A stretch of DNA of 64,000 nucleotides from Halomonas smyrnensis AAD6 (lineage in GTDB: Bacteria > Pseudomonadota > Gammaproteobacteria > Pseudomonadales > Halomonadaceae). Of this stretch, positions 11,231-52,361 are shown piece after piece (the first letter of the stretch is position 1; each line of letters begins with the position of its first letter). The position numbers and the translations under genes are program-made. The notes under the pieces are model-generated. The model saw only the letters and a list, made by a program, of their open reading frames with translations. It was not told where the DNA came from and ran no database searches. Location: the NCBI RefSeq assembly GCF_000265245.1, contig NZ_AJKS02000015.1, forward strand, positions 1 through 64,000, given 5' to 3'.

Positions 11231-11797
11231 TCAGGCGCGGGAGACATACTCACCGGAGCGCGTATCGACCTTCAGCACTTCGCCCTGGTTGATGAACAGC
11301 GGCACGCGCACCACGGCGCCGGAGGACAGGGTCGCCGGCTTGGAGCCGCCCTGGGCGGTGTCACCCTTGAGGCCGGGGTCGGTCTCGGTGACCTCGAGCT
11401 CGATGAAGTTCGGCGGGGTCACGGCGATGGCGTTGTCGTTCCACAGGGTCACGGTGTAGACCACCTGCTCCTTGAGCCACTTGTCGGTCTCGCCCAGCGC
11501 CTTCTTCTCGACGGCGTACTGTTCGAAGGAGCCGTCGGTCTTCATGAAGTGCCACATGTCGCCGTCGGTGTAGACGTACTCCATGTCCAGCTCGAGCACG
11601 TCGGCGCCTTCCAGGGACTCGCCGGACTTGAAGGTGCGTTCCCAGACGCGGCCGGTCATCAGGTTGCGCAGCTTGACGCGGTTGAAGGCCTGGCCCTTGC
11701 CCGGCTTGACGTAGTCGTTCTCGAGGATGGCGCAGGGGTCGCCATCCAGCATGACCTTCAGACCGCCCTTGAATTCGTTGGTAGAATAGTTCGCCAT
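11231..11797 (-). CDS. efp: Translation elongation factor P
   Basis: EF-P binds between the ribosomal P and E sites and rescues ribosomes stalled on polyproline. It is 188 residues, exactly the E. coli length, with three beta-barrel domains. The modified lysine is K34 in VKPGKGQAF, the beta-lysylated type, matching the epmA and epmB neighbours; the C-terminal signature [20 protein letters not shown] is intact. The start is the ATG of [12 protein letters not shown]. epmB is divergent about 110 bases upstream and epmA follows downstream, so substrate and both lysylation enzymes are clustered. The hydroxylase EpmC is not in the window. Confidence 0.98.
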
Positions 11798-11905
11798 GAT
11801 GATCGTTCCATATTCCAGCGCGTCGGTGGCCGAAGCCGCGGACGCGAGCAAGCAAATGACAGTGGCCGAGGGGCAAGCCCTCGGCCGCCTCGAAGTGTGC
11901 CCCGC

Positions 11906-12931
11906 ATGATAACCCGAAGCCCGATTCCTTTGCAGTGCCGGCCCGCCACGCCGGCGCCCGGCGCCTGGCAGGCGCAGCTGGCCGGCGCGATCCGCGACCC
12001 GCACGCCCTGTGCCGCCGCCTGGGCCTCGCCCCCGAGTGGGTGTCCGGCGCCGAGGCCGGCCATGCGCTGTTCGAGGTGCGAGTGCCGGAGGCCTACCTC
12101 GCCCGCATCCGACCCGGCGATCCGAGCGACCCGCTGCTGCGCCAGGTGCTGCCGCTCGGCGAGGAGGCCGAGGCCGCGCCCGGTTTCGTCGCCGACCCGC
12201 TCGAGGAGGCCGACCATACCCAGAAGCGCGGGCTGATCCACAAGTACGCCGGCCGGGTGCTGTTGATCGCGAGCCCCGCCTGCGCGGTGAACTGCCGCTA
12301 CTGCTTCCGCCGCCACTTCCCGTATGAAGAGAACGCGCCCTCGCGGGCCCAGTGGGAGGAGACGCTGTCCTACCTGCGCGACGATGCCTCCATCGTTGAG
12401 GCGATTCTCTCCGGCGGCGACCCGCTGGCGGCCAGCGACCGCCAGCTTTCCTGGCTGGTCGAACGGCTGGCGGCCATCCCGCACCTCCGGCGGCTGCGGA
12501 TCCACACCCGGCTGCCGGTGGTGATCCCCGACCGCATCGACGGCGCCCTGCTCGACTGGCTCGGCGGCACGCGGCTGCAGAAGGTCATGGTGCTGCACAT
12601 CAACCACGCCCGGGAAATCGACGAGGCGGTGGTCGAGGCCTGCCGACGGCTGCAGGCCGCGGGCGTGACCCTGCTCAACCAGAGCGTGCTGCTGCGAGGG
12701 GTCAACGACGACGTCGCGTCGCTGGCCGAGCTCTCCGAGCGGCTGTTCGAGGCCGGCATCCTGCCCTACTACCTGCACGTGCTGGACCCGGTGGCCGGCG
12801 CCGCCCACTTCGACGTGAGCGACGAGGCGGCCCGGGCGCTGGTCGCCGAGCTGCGCCGGCACCTGCCCGGCTTTCTGATGCCGACGCTGGTGCGCGAGGT
12901 GCCCGGCGAGGCCAGCAAGACGCCGCTGTAG
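11906..12931 (+). CDS. epmB: EF-P beta-lysylation protein EpmB (lysine 2,3-aminomutase, radical SAM)
   Basis: Converts (S)-alpha-lysine to (R)-beta-lysine, the donor used by EpmA on EF-P. Of 341 residues, the radical SAM cluster is C126-x3-C130-x2-C133 (CAVNCRYC), followed by GGDPL for SAM binding. PLP-binding residues lie in the C-terminal part ([12 protein letters not shown] region). The preceding segment [13 protein letters not shown] is typical of aminomutases. The start MITRSPIP is the first ATG after the divergent efp promoter region. The gene ends at an 18-bp terminator shared with convergent leuA. Confidence 0.96.
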
Positions 12932-12966
12932 GCGGCCAAGCGGCCAAAACATACACCTATCCCCGC

Positions 12967-13008
12967 ACAAGCGAACCCCGAAGGTCGTGGCCTTCGGGGT
13001 TCGCTTGT
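12967..13008. terminator. Bidirectional terminator between epmB and leuA
   Basis: An 18-bp perfect stem (12967-12984 with 12991-13008) has a TCGTGG loop. Its outer seven bases are a unit of the heptad repeat (ACAAGCG/CGCTTGT) that continues toward leuA. There is no long uridine tract on either strand. Confidence 0.8.
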
Positions 13009-13043
13009 CGCTAGGCGCTAATCACTCGGCGCTTGGCGCTCGG
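13002..13043. repeat. Six-unit heptanucleotide tandem repeat at the 3' end of leuA
   Basis: Six consecutive 7-base units start at 13002, 13009, 13016, 13023, 13030 and 13037. All fit C-G/A-C-T-N-N-N, mostly CGCTNGG or CGCTTGT. The array ends five bases from the leuA stop codon and overlaps the right arm of the terminator. Related arrays end at the parE and mdh stop codons. Confidence 0.85.
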
Positions 13044-13048
13044 TACCG

Positions 13049-14755
13049 TTAGGCCAGCGTTTCGGCGGTCACGTTGGCCGCCGGCTCCTCGGTGGAGTGC
13101 TTGCGGTTGATCGCGCTCAGCACGCCCTTGATCGAGGCGCTGGTGATGCTCTCGTCGGTGCCGACGCCGAACACCGCCTCGCCGTTGACGCGCACCTCCA
13201 CGTAGGCGATCGCCTCGGCGTCGGCGCCCTGGCCGCGGGAGTGCTCGTGATAGTCGATGATCTCGACGTCATGGCCCTCGCCGGCCAGCGCCTTGATGAA
13301 GGCCGCCAGCGGCCCGTTGCCCTGGCTCTGGATGACGCGACGCTCGCCGCCTTCCTCGACGGTGGCCTCGAGGGTCACGGTGGGGCTGTCCGGCTCGGAG
13401 GACATGCGGTGGCTGATCAGGGCGAAGGGCTCGCGCTGCTCGAGGTACTCGTCGACGAAGGCCTGGTAGATCATCTCGGAGGTGATCTCCTTACCCAGCC
13501 GGTCGGCCACTTCCTGCACCACCTGGCTGAACTCGATCGACAGGCGGCGCGGCAGCTCGATGCCGTGCTCCTGCTCGAGCAGGTAGGAGACGCCACCCTT
13601 GCCGGACTGGCTGTTGACGCGGATCACCGCCTCGTAGCTGCGGCCCACGTCGAGCGGGTCGATCGGCAGGTAGGGTACCGCCCAGACGGCCTCCGGGTTC
13701 TCGCGGCGCTCGGCCATGCCCTTCTTGATGGCGTCCTGGTGGGAGCCGGAGAAGGCGGTGAACACCAGGTCGCCGACGTAGGGATGGCGCGGGTGCACCG
13801 GCAGCTGGTTGCAATACTCCACTTCGCGCATGATCGGCGTGATGTTGGAGAAGTCGAGGCCCGGGTGCACGCCCTGGGTGTAGAGGTTCATGGCCAGGGT
13901 GACGAGGTCGACGTTGCCGGTACGCTCGCCGTTGCCGAACAGGCAGCCCTCGACGCGGTCGGCGCCGGCCATCACCGTCAGCTCGGCGGCGGCCACGCCG
14001 GTGCCGCGGTCGTTGTGCGGGTGCACGCTGACGATCAGGTGATCGCGATGGGCGACGTGGCGGCAGAACCACTCCACCTGGTCGGCGTAGTTGTTGGGCG
14101 TGGCGCACTCCACGGTGGCCGGCAGGTTGACGATCATCGGCTTCTCGACGCTGCCGCCATAGGTGGCCTCCACGGCATCGACGATCTCCACCGCGAAGTC
14201 CATCTCGGTGGTCGAGAAAAGCTCCGGCGAGTACTGGAAGGTCCAGTGGGTCTCCGGGGCCGCCGCCATGTGCTCGCGGATGCGGGTGGTGGCGTCCACC
14301 GCGATCTGGATGCACTCGGGCTTGCTGACGTTGAACACCACGCGGCGGAACACCGGATCGGTGGCGTTGTAGACGTGAACGATGGCGTTCTTGGCGCCCT
14401 TGAGCGCCTCGAAGGTGCGGTCGATCAGGTGCGGGCGCGCCTGGGTGAGCACCTGGATGGTGACGTCGTCCGGCACCTTGTCCTCTTCGATCAGCGAGCG
14501 CACGAAGTCGAAGTCGGTCTGGGAGGCCGAGGGGAAGCCCACCTCGATCTGCTTGAAGCCGATCTTCACCAGCAGGTCGAAGAAGCGCTGCTTGCGCTCC
14601 TGGTCCATGGGATCGATCAGCGCCTGGTTACCGTCACGCAGGTCGACGGCGCACCACTGGGGCGGCGTCTCGATGCGCTGGCTCGGCCACTGGCGGTCGG
14701 GCAGGTCGACGGCCACGAAGGGGCGGTACTTGGCGGAGGGGTTATCGAGCATCAT
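13049..14755 (-). CDS. leuA: 2-isopropylmalate synthase (long LeuA2-type)
   Basis: First committed step of leucine synthesis: condenses acetyl-CoA with 2-oxoisovalerate. The 568-residue protein is of the long type rather than the roughly 520-residue E. coli form. The HMGL-like catalytic domain has [12 protein letters not shown] (R40, D41) and HPHNDRGTG metal ligands; a linker and a C-terminal allosteric leucine-binding domain follow, ending in the A/S-rich GVLSAINR segment. Start ATG-ATG has GGGAG nine bases upstream. A leader ORF and GC-rich hairpin precede it, suggesting attenuation. The N-terminal [12 protein letters not shown] and [10 protein letters not shown] segments are typical of LeuA2. 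Other leu genes are not in the window. Confidence 0.96.
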
Positions 14756-19489: not shown

Positions 19490-19573
19490 GGCAATTCGAC
19501 CCTATTCACGATCGTGGAATCGTACTGAAAACGTATCGGCACCGGTGGCCGCTTATCGCGGCTGTGCTGTCGC

Positions 19574-19640
19574 CAGGCCCTCGCGAGGACGCGGAAAACC
19601 CGCCCCTGGGCGCTCCCTTTTTCCTCCCTGAAAAAGGAGC
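19574..19640. repeat. Copy B of dispersed intergenic element plus hairpin, between parC and parE
   Basis: Positions 19574-19616 (CAGGCCCTCGCGAGGACGC ... CCTGGGCGCTCCC) align with the cores at 11118 and 62529. Immediately after comes an imperfect hairpin, GCTCCCTTTTTC with GAAAAAGGAGC (19612-19640), that may serve as a terminator for parE. The 210-base gap holds no convincing gene. Confidence 0.6.
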
Positions 19641-19668
19641 CTCGCTCAGACCTGCCTCAGCGCCGCTC

Positions 19669-21595
<1,927 letters not shown>

Positions 21596-24817: not shown

Positions 24818-25810
24818 GTGCCGATTCCCGACGCCCATCGCCCGCTCTATCGGGCCTTCCTCGACCAGGGGCTCGATACCTGGCTGGCCCGGCTGCCCGA
24901 GCAGCTGGCCCGCGGCCTCGACCGCTCGCGCTTCGGCGACCTGCCGGCCTGGGAGAAGGCGGTGGCCAAGCTGCCGCCGCTGCCGGAGGGCCGCGAGGTG
25001 CGCCTCGATGCCGACCACGTCACGGTGGACGCCGAGCTGGACGCCTCGCGCCGCCGCCAGAGCGAGAGCCTGCTGCGCGTGCTGGCGCCGTGGCGCAAGG
25101 GGCCGTACAGGCTCGGCGGGGTGACCATCGACACCGAATGGCGCTCCGACTGGAAATGGCAGCGGGTGGCGCCGCACCTGGCGCCGCTGGCCGGCCGGCG
25201 GGTGCTCGACGTAGGCGGCGGCAACGGCTATCACGCCTGGCGCATGGCCGGCGACGGCGCCGACTTCGTGCTGGTGATCGACCCCTCGCCGCGCTTCTAC
25301 TGGCAGTTCCAGGCGGTGCGCCACTTCGTCGGCGACGCCGACGGCGGCGCGGTGCACTTCCTGCCGGTGGGCATCGAGGACGTGCCGGAGGAGCTGGCCT
25401 TCTTCGACACCGTGTTCTCGATGGGCGTGCTCTACCACCGCCCCTCGCCGCTGGAGCACCTGGCCCAGCTCAAGGCCGCGCTGCGCCCCGGCGGCGAGCT
25501 GGTGCTGGAGACCCTGGTGGTCGAGGGCGACGCCACCACGGTGCTGCTGCCGGGCGAGCGCTACGCCGCCATGCCCAACGTCTACTTCCTGCCCTCCTCC
25601 GCCGCGCTGTGCGGCTGGCTCGAGCGCGCCGGCTTCGACAACGTGCGGGTGGTCGACGAGGCCGACACCTCGCTCGACGAGCAGCGCGCCACCGAGTGGA
25701 TGACCTTCCAGTCACTGGCCGACTTCCTCGACCCCGACGATCCGACCCGGACCCGCGAGGGTCATCCCGCGCCGCGCCGCGCGGTGCTGGTCGCCAACCG
25801 GCCACGCTGA
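24818..25810 (+). CDS. cmoB: tRNA U34 carboxymethyltransferase CmoB
   Basis: Transfers the carboxymethyl group from carboxy-SAM to 5-hydroxyuridine 34, giving cmo5U in tRNAs that read four-codon boxes. The 330-residue protein has a helical N-terminal part and a Rossmann domain with RRVLDVGGGNGYHAWRM, VIDPSPRFYWQFQAV, FDTVFSMGVLYHRPSPLEHL and the C-terminal WMTFQSLADFLDPDDPTRT. The start is GTG with AAGGA nine bases upstream inside the cmoA end. It works directly with CmoA, and CmoM is encoded near 34 kb. A hairpin terminator follows. Confidence 0.96.
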   Translation: MPIPDAHRPLYRAFLDQGLDTWLARLPEQLARGLDRSRFGDLPAWEKAVAKLPPLPEGREVRLDADHVTVDAELDASRRRQSESLLRVLAPWRKGPYRLGGVTIDTEWRSDWKWQRVAPHLAPLAGRRVLDVGGGNGYHAWRMAGDGADFVLVIDPSPRFYWQFQAVRHFVGDADGGAVHFLPVGIEDVPEELAFFDTVFSMGVLYHRPSPLEHLAQLKAALRPGGELVLETLVVEGDATTVLLPGERYAAMPNVYFLPSSAALCGWLERAGFDNVRVVDEADTSLDEQRATEWMTFQSLADFLDPDDPTRTREGHPAPRRAVLVANRPR

Positions 25811-25853
25811 TACCGCTTTCCGCTGCCCCGGCGGTCATTCTTCAGCCTTGGCC

Positions 25854-25866
25854 GGGGTCTGACCCC
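25854..25866. repeat. GGGGTCTGACCCC palindrome
   Basis: A 13-base near-perfect palindrome downstream of cmoB. From general experience the same sequence recurs in proteobacterial intergenic DNA, often near REP-type elements. Only one copy is seen here. Confidence 0.5.
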
Positions 25867-25884
25867 ATAAAGCCCTCGGAAACA

Positions 25885-25918
25885 ACGAGGCCCCGCCGCT
25901 TGCGCGACAGGGCCTCGT
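25885..25918. terminator. Hairpin terminator between cmoB and cysN
   Basis: A 9-bp stem, ACGAGGCCC (25885-25893) with GGGCCTCGT (25910-25918), and a 16-base GC-rich loop, placed between convergent cmoB and cysN. There is no clear uridine tract. Confidence 0.6.
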
Positions 25919-25943
25919 GCTACCCGCAGGGCGGATCAGGGCA

Positions 25944-51262: not shown

Positions 51263-51325
51263 GCCGGCCCGGCGTCGCCGGAAACCGCAGGCGGCAAGGC
51301 GACGGCGTGAAACGGCTGGAAGCAA

Positions 51326-51360
51326 AAGAAAACCCGAAGGCCATGGCCTCGGGTTTTCTT
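51326..51360. terminator. Bidirectional terminator between HAD gene and mdh
   Basis: AAGAAAACCCGA-A-GGCC pairs with GGCCTCGGGTTTTCTT through a 16-bp stem with one bulged A. TTTTCTTG on the plus strand and A-rich sequence on the other side support termination in both directions. Confidence 0.85.
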
Positions 51361-51390
51361 GTCACTCGGCGCTTGTCGCTCGGCGCTCAG
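51356..51390. repeat. Heptanucleotide tandem repeat at the 3' end of mdh
   Basis: Units begin at 51363, 51370, 51377 and 51384 (CACTCGG, CGCTTGT, CGCTCGG, CGCTCAG), with a degenerate unit before them that merges into the terminator. The mdh stop codon (51387-51389) lies inside the last unit. Confidence 0.8.
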
Positions 51391-52361
51391 CCCAGCAGGT
51401 GCTCCACTGCGGCGCGCTCTTCGCGCAGCTCGTTCTCGGTGGCGGTCATGCGCTCGCGGCTGAAGTCGTCGACCGCCAGGTCCTGCACTATCTCGTACTT
51501 GCCGTCCTTGCAGACCACCGGGTAGGAATACATGATGCCCGGCTCGATGCCGTAGCTGCCGTCGGCCGGGATGCCCATGCTGACGATGCCGTCGCTGCCC
51601 AGCGCCCAGTCACGCATGTGGTCGATGGCCGCGGACGCCGCGGACGCCGCGGAGGAAGCACCGCGGGCCTTGATGATGGCCGCGCCGCGCTGCTGCACGG
51701 TGGGGATGAAGTCGTTCTCGTACCAGTCGCGCTCGACCAGTTCGAGGGCCGGCTTGCCATCGACCTTGCAGTGGGCCAGGTCCGGATACTGGGTGGCGCT
51801 GTGGTTGCCCCACACGATCATCGAATCGACGTCGGTGCTGTGCTTGCCGGTCTTCTGGGCCAGCTGGGTCAGGGCGCGGTTGTGGTCCAGACGCATCATC
51901 GCGGTGAACTGGCCGGCATCGAGGTCCGGCGCGTTGCAGGACGCGATCAGGGCGTTGGTGTTGGCCGGGTTGCCCACCACCAGCACGCGCACGTCGCGGC
52001 TGGCGACGTCGTTCAGGGCCTTGCCCTGGGCGGAGAAGATCGCGGCGTTGGCTTCCAGCAGGTCCTTGCGCTCCATGCCCGGACCGCGCGGACGGGCGCC
52101 GACCAGCAGGGCGAAATCGGCATCCTTGAAGGCGACGTTGGGGTCGTCGGAGGCGACGATGTCCTGCACCAGCGGGAAGGCGCAGTCGTTGAGCTCCATC
52201 ACCACACCGTTGAGCGCATCCATGGCCGGCGTGATCTCGAGCAGCTGCAGGATGACCGGCTGGTCCTTGCCGAGCATGTCGCCGGAGGCGATGCGGAACG
52301 CCAGGGAGTAGCTGATCTGGCCGGCAGCGCCGGTAATGGCAATACGGACGGGGTCTTTCAT
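51387..52361 (-). CDS. mdh: Malate dehydrogenase (cytosolic-type, about 325 aa)
   Basis: NAD-dependent malate/oxaloacetate interconversion in the TCA cycle. The 324-residue protein belongs to the MDH type related to eukaryotic cytosolic MDH, as in Neisseria and Burkholderia, not the 312-residue E. coli type. Features are [16 protein letters not shown] for the dinucleotide, [16 protein letters not shown] with substrate-binding Arg residues, [24 protein letters not shown] and the catalytic His in [18 protein letters not shown] precedes ATG. A 9-bp repeat encodes SAASAASAA (around 51631-51652). The stop lies in a heptad-repeat array. Confidence 0.95.

Follow-up and report, generated by a model that had tools for sequence, protein, structure and literature searches.

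Seven-base repeat arrays adjoin a dispersed, terminator-like hairpin between convergent genes in a Halomonas genome

Among the tandem repeats of bacteria, heptameric units are over-represented; the explanations put forward are hypotheses only, one being that seven bases is the DNA segment held by the polymerase (PMC4692102). The units described in that paper are GGGAATC in Xanthomonas and GGGGA(C/T)T in Nostoc, present in arrays of 2-26 units within one species. These arrays are mostly intergenic, prefer positions within 50 bp of stop codons (on the sense strand) or start codons (on the antisense strand), and are under-represented between divergent genes; arrays of opposite orientation often lie close together, and long arrays occur at different genes in two related species. 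The Xanthomonas unit is G-rich and has been studied as quadruplex-forming, and a role in transcription termination has been examined (PMC4692102). In Beggiatoaceae, TAACTGA direct repeats with a fixed unit lie mostly just upstream of starts (PMC4679880). Dispersed elements are also known: Pseudomonas fluorescens carries stem-loop repeats with a tail-repeat-tail bias, for which a terminator role has been suggested (PMC2718517), and REPINs are linked to RAYT transposases (PMC3116915).

We analysed a 64,000-nt stretch (the window) of a 3.56-Mb Halomonas genome, in which an earlier note had described three heptad arrays at the ends of leuA, parE and mdh, all on one strand relative to the gene, and none at any further gene end. 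The three arrays are present as stated, and no other array of the pattern was found in the window. The features are as follows.

11549-12931, + strand: ORF containing epmB, facing leuA (convergent); TIGR03821, family match from residue 140, and ORF listing
12967-13008, no strand assigned: terminator-like hairpin common to leuA and epmB; sequence, spacer fold (L096) and core model match
13002-13043, - strand: leuA 3' spacer array of six heptads, sense unit RAGCNNC, + strand CGCTNGG; sequence and pattern matching
13049-14755, - strand: leuA, 2-isopropylmalate synthase; NCBIfam NF002991, TIGR00970
17231-19489, - strand: parC, topoisomerase IV subunit A, downstream of the parE array; NCBIfam TIGR01062
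19669-19703, - strand: parE array in the parE-parC tandem spacer, without the terminator core; sequence, pattern matching, Tandem Repeats Finder and relatives
19700-21580, - strand: parE, topoisomerase IV subunit B; NCBIfam TIGR01055
50606-51262, + strand: histidinol-phosphatase (HAD-IB) gene, facing mdh (convergent); NCBIfam NF052360 on L093:808-1464
51326-51360, no strand assigned: hairpin between mdh and the histidinol-phosphatase gene, resembling a bidirectional intrinsic terminator; sequence, terminator scan and core model
51356-51390, - strand: mdh heptad array; sequence, pattern matching and Tandem Repeats Finder
51387-52361, - strand: mdh, malate dehydrogenase; NCBIfam NF003916

On the + strand the leuA array reads CGCTTGT CGCTAGG CGCTAAT CACTCGG CGCTTGG CGCTCGG and lies five bases from the leuA stop codon (13049-13051, - strand). 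The mdh array reads TTCTTGT CACTCGG CGCTTGT CGCTCGG CGCTCAG, with the mdh stop codon inside its last unit, and the parE array, composed of three clean units (19676-19696) with degenerate units on both sides, overlaps the parE stop. All three overlap a stop codon or lie five bases from one, as had been claimed. Since leuA, parE and mdh are on the - strand, the + strand unit CGCTTGT/CGCTCGG reads RAGCNNC in the sense of the gene (AAGCGCC, GAGCGAC etc.). Tandem Repeats Finder reports all three arrays, with a period of 14 or 7. Two of them, at leuA and mdh, run into a hairpin, again in agreement with the earlier description, and the first unit of each is shared with the hairpin arm (at leuA the right arm includes the heptad at 13002-13008).

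A 20-base pattern of three units, allowing up to three mismatches, matched the window 33 times against a mean of 18.6 in dinucleotide shuffles; at no more than one mismatch there were six matches, five in the three arrays and one (18028) within parC. Genome-wide and with at most one mismatch, this pattern gave 39+30 matches against 1+3 for a reversed control, and a related pattern gave 141 against 10. The longest arrays in the genome comprise ~16 CGCTTGG heptads at C33:251803 and ~24 heptads, with the 14-bp unit CGCTTGTAGCTCGG, at C21:40870. Tandem tracts scoring at least 16 at periods 4-15 were sought in a sample of 464 kb (the window and 20 stretches spread across four large contigs): none occurred at 8 of the 12 periods, including 7 and 14, and one or two each at periods 6, 9, 11 and 12, but the three window arrays score below this cut-off, and long arrays occur too seldom to show up in a sample of that size.

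The Halomonas arrays resemble the Xanthomonas and Nostoc heptamers in being intergenic tandem repeats of a seven-base unit with variable positions, and they share with those of Xanthomonas inverted array pairs, length variation and a similar geometry. The statement in the earlier note that no described family exists was thus too strong, in that the GGGAATC heptamers (PMC4692102) have a similar geometry and a different unit. In contrast to GGGAATC, RAGCNNC lacks G-runs, and by eye AAGCTGC, AAGCGGC, GCGCCGAGCTACAA, GCACCTC and further units lack GGG, nor do the Halomonas units contain, by eye, a G-tract able to form a G-quadruplex. With the TAACTGA repeats of Beggiatoaceae (PMC4679880) they have in common a seven-base intergenic tandem unit, many sets per genome and a patchy distribution; unlike them, they adjoin stop codons in this genome and their unit varies. 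We found no description of RAGCNNC heptads in the literature searched, which took in few subscription papers, and none of the paper texts searched contained the exact heptad strings. The main text of PMC4692102 never uses the word "terminator", and coupling to a conserved terminator core appears, on the basis of that text, to be undescribed for Xanthomonas and Nostoc. The Halomonas arrays are heptameric intergenic repeats of a known type with a different unit, coupled to a family of terminator-like hairpins.

Two of the three window arrays, those at leuA and mdh, belong to this dispersed family, and the parE array is without the core. A covariance model of the core, built from 14 copies, gave at least 26 separate genomic matches at E<=0.05, with 150 of 2368 first-look candidates scored; 22 of the matches exceeded 63 bits. 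The matches at leuA/epmB (12943-13018, 65.7 bits) and mdh (51299-51372, 68.2 bits) are to copies that were among those building the model. Around most of the arrays the order is stop codon, heptad array, hairpin, conserved flank, often a second array, and the stop codon of the facing gene; the hairpin has the form AAAACCCCGAAGG-loop-CCTTCGGGGTTTT, and the array units differ by side, with GCGCCGAGCTACAA on one and AAGCTGC on the other. According to a simple gene caller, 22 of the 23 inspected copies sit between the stop codons of convergent genes, as do all nine inspected copies from outside the model-building set, against a background of 65 convergent pairs among 414 neighbouring gene pairs in the 464-kb sample. 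The caller is a rough tool, and its wrong call of epmB in the window was put right from the ORF listing and NCBIfam. The exception, L083, has its core after the 3' end of one gene and before the start of a gene resembling TatD (the name being our own reading). By extrapolation, perhaps one convergent pair in twenty carries the core, and most of the other convergent spacers listed have, by eye, different hairpins or none visible. In their preference for convergent spacers these dispersed stem-loop elements are like the P. fluorescens repeats (PMC2718517). An Rfam search over the window returned tRNA only. Two heptad arrays without a core match, both in convergent spacers, were seen by eye at L041:4004-4118, where the array adjoins a different hairpin, and at L031:2194-2224. 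Beside a gyrB-like gene (L097, G000:C32:384059), a core copy has an adjoining palindrome, GATGTTTCACGTGAAACATC.

Bidirectional intrinsic terminators are hairpins with an A-tract and a T-tract that lie between convergent genes. The Halomonas hairpin has the same tracts and the same setting; unlike independent terminators of this kind, its copies share flanks beyond the hairpin and therefore look related. With 72 copies aligned, taken from this genome and from nine relatives, pairing holds in 95.2% of the hairpin cells, compared with 43-65% in controls in which the hairpin was slid along. Both sides have changed in 8 of the 18 pairs, a level reached in 0 of 500 shuffles, with an alignment that was fitted to the model and so favours the structure. 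The covarying, GC-rich stem is followed, as in intrinsic terminators, by a T-tract, which is good at mdh and interrupted at leuA. A simple terminator scan called the mdh hairpin on the - strand and did not call that of leuA, where the T-tract is interrupted; the scan carries little weight, since its sites were no more frequent than in shuffles (1 versus 4.0; 3 versus 3.8). As judged from sequence, the hairpins probably end transcription from both sides. The proposal that the arrays are tied to terminator-like hairpins is supported by the core copies, the parE array being the one in the window that is not attached to a core.

We fetched 51 loci from the core copies of relatives and, using both flanking proteins, established 35 orthologous pairs that cover 18 of 23 loci here and seven genomes including this one. 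All 35 pairs agree in the two genes that flank the element and in its orientation (a near tie in one pair); the relatives' loci were picked for having a core, so core losses are not counted. The position is constant and the length is not: the longest array at orthologous loci ranges from 0 to 207 bp, and of the 25 pairs with an above-threshold tract on one or both sides, 24 differ in the length of the longest tract. Lengths are equal in 11 of the 35 pairs, 10 of these being without a tract above threshold on either side, and the difference over all 35 has a median of 19 bp and a maximum of 172 bp, with degenerate arrays such as that of leuA scored as zero. The suggestion that the arrays are slippage-prone is borne out by these differences. 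Units also vary by locus (AAGCTGC, AAGCTGA, AAGCGGC and GCACCTC, the last three at single or few loci).

Among 74 core loci, three were at contig edges, leaving 71 spacers, 63 called convergent and 8 tandem; three of the latter are the TatD locus in three genomes, and one (L141) is a caller error at epmB. Dropping one spacer with a run of N (L119) left 70, chosen by the core and not by arrays. Tandem tracts in these 70 spacers have periods of 7 (31 tracts), 14 (33) and 21 (22), and none was found at any other period from 3 to 20. The step therefore stays at seven while the unit changes. The 29 tracts in convergent spacers comprise 27 with RAGC in the sense of the gene, none antisense, and two unassignable (GCACCTC and an N run). 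The Xanthomonas/Nostoc placement preference is seen here too: 27 of 29 tracts in convergent spacers are sense, and in relatives 13 of 14 arrays near a start are antisense and 1 of 49 intergenic arrays is divergent. The preference at stops holds in this genome and its near relatives only; in relatives farther off, 20 arrays nearest a stop are sense and 15 antisense.

The heptads also occur outside this genome. At least three GCTYG heptads in register occur in 104 of 201 Halomonadaceae genomes and 14 of 24 genera, although single matches may be chance, and a reversed control for this count is invalid because GCTCG reads the same backwards. The 14-bp form is present in records of Halomonas getboli, beimenensis, rhizosphaerae, lysinitropha, urmiana, ventosae, saccharevitans and sp. 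25-S5. Across the class, three GCTTG heptads were found in 16 of 369 genomes and the reversed control in 10, as counted from the matches listed, so that single matches beyond G000, G362, G487 and perhaps G323 mean little. Longer arrays exist in another genus of the family, one of 481 bp (L332, G124:C1:119742-120222) and a chain of 614 bp with gaps of up to 40 bp (L335), and RAGCNNC is common to most units across genera. Of 51 arrays in relatives, 15 are in convergent, 33 in tandem and one in divergent spacers, and two were called inside a gene. G487 belongs to another family of the class; its inverted array pairs, whose starts are often 114-120 bp apart, are mostly found in tandem spacers, and two arrays that stand alone lie between a stop codon and a terminator-like hairpin. 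The rule of gene ends on one strand is limited to this genome and its near relatives. The one-sidedness that had been reported at gene ends thus stands for these (27 sense, 0 antisense) and not for relatives farther off, where placement differs. A 3'-UTR element as such, also proposed earlier, is not supported, given the 33 of 51 relatives' arrays in tandem spacers and the 13 of 14 nearest a start that read the other way, and the relatives' tandem and near-start arrays rule out the arrays as a general mark of gene ends. The IMG/VR collection holds the heptad pattern in 77 stretches (L255-L331).

On balance, we favour a reading in which the function rests with the hairpin, and slippage in place, within tolerant sequence between convergent genes, has produced the arrays. 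The whole would be a dispersed intergenic element between convergent genes, with a hairpin at its centre that ends transcription from both sides, and the stretch between the hairpin and each stop codon would be under little constraint. Heptad arrays there would grow and shrink in place, in 7-bp steps, by replication slippage or unequal recombination, each forming the final part of the transcript of its gene, with a length that is nearly free. The sequence comparisons point to slippage as the process and suggest that the arrays are dispensable, and an array may have no function of its own. Two observations run against the slippage reading: a constraint on RAGC, as free products should decay evenly, and the 27-to-0 sense orientation. 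With many orthologous loci in which the unit changes while the step stays at seven beside a hairpin, slippage and recognition are separable. Should the hairpins terminate as expected, they would provide Halomonas with bidirectional terminators of natural origin; the arrays, being variable, are candidates for typing markers.

The constraint on RAGC is evidence for a fairly unlikely alternative, that the arrays are read, a protein (or RNA) recognizing RAGC at a 7-nt or 7-bp pitch in DNA or at the mRNA end, with array length tuning the binding. We compared the third with the second unit in chains of RAGC heptads, requiring RAGC in the first two units only and a chain of opposite direction close by. 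For parE spacers of Halomonas, which were picked through the ParE protein, identities at positions 1-4 were 14, 16, 16 and 17 of 18, and at positions 5-6 they were 8 and 3 of 18 (overall 63/72 versus 11/36, p 4e-9, a value too small given that the species are related). G487 gave 30, 32, 30 and 31 of 35 at positions 1-4 versus 14 and 8 at 5-6 (123/140 versus 22/70, p 1.8e-16, inflated because a four-unit pattern was used to pick the loci); once the arms so picked were dropped, the 12 chains left gave 31/48 versus 6/24 (p 0.002). The three chains scored in G362 had no clear pattern. An evenly decaying repeat would not give such a constraint, for which the evidence is modest: it is clear in one data set, weaker in another, and not explained by slippage. 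The one-sided orientation and the recurrence of RAGCNNC across genera also favour arrays that are read. Against them stand the range of 0 to 207 bp in longest array at orthologous loci, the GCACCTC tract, which keeps the period and loses RAGC, and the differing placement relative to genes in relatives. Self-folding of the RNA, relative to mononucleotide shuffles, is strong for AAGCTGC (z -4.7), AAGCGCC (-4.1) and TACGAGC (-3.6) and not special for GCGCCGAGCTACAA (z -1.0) or GAGGTGC (z -0.4). RNA folding as a common function is disfavoured by this difference between units. A broader form of the idea, which we hold as distinctly doubtful, makes RAGC at a 7-bp pitch a recognition code for a factor acting at gene ends or where inverted pairs surround hairpins. 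Halomonadaceae would share this code with two or more further lineages of Gammaproteobacteria, array length would serve as a rapidly evolving dial, and seven would be the pitch of the factor or of the replicative polymerase.

It is also unlikely that the core with its heptad ends is a miniature mobile element, mobilized like REPINs or MITEs, with the heptads as terminal repeats. The copies are dispersed and asymmetric, and the paired arrays of G487 form inverted arms at a frequent spacing. Mean core identity between orthologues (0.696, 62 pairs) is no higher than between copies in the same genome (0.700, 531) and close to that of unrelated copies between genomes (0.685, 2108), and for 16 of the 55 cores that have an orthologue, some other copy is more similar than the best orthologue by >0.12. 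Orthologous cores being hardly more alike than other copies, cores appear to turn over faster than their neighbours, through conversion between copies or renewed insertion; ectopic gene conversion accounts for the same pattern without mobility, and the orthologue is the nearest copy in 12 of 55 cases versus 1.7 expected. Also against mobility is the shared orientation in 35 of 35 orthologous pairs, at loci chosen for holding the core. The REP-associated tyrosine transposase family PF01797 had no match in this genome (assembly 95.93% complete) and was detected in 5 of 14 control genomes; the element differs from REPINs (PMC3116915) in that no RAYT transposase was found, and from both REPINs and the P. 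fluorescens repeats (PMC2718517) in its tandem heptads, which are not described in the text of those reports. Plasmid and phage collections gave no match, with one query each. The parE locus, examined in 30 species of the genus, bears on mobility through its compact spacers, under 25 bp and array-free, in six of the 30. At least three sense heptads are present in 10 of these loci and antisense heptads in 7; in 5 of the 30 the parC start was not found by motif.

That heptads arise by accident from the composition of a GC-rich genome is refuted by the genome-wide reversed control (69 versus 4), the arrays of ~16 and ~24 heptads and the window shuffles (0 of 100 reaching 33 matches), even if short, degenerate arrays such as that of parE are near the limit when taken singly.

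In H. getboli, whose ParE fragment is 99% identical, the units in the parE spacer are different and inverted. After the parE stop in L393, L396 and L399, the heptads directly adjoin another palindromic repeat of dispersed occurrence, GGCGCCGGGGACAGG ... AGCGCCCAGGGATGGGTTCACAGCGCCTCC, similar copies of which lie at L168 ~13251, L170 ~3227 and L175 ~18960, with a degenerate one in the window at ~19520-19668. A MITE-like palindrome, GGGGTCAGACCCTTAAG...CTTAAGGGTCTGACCCC, lies within the terminator spacers of some relatives (L120, L121 and, in part, L125), and a half related to it is present in the window at ~25810-25943.
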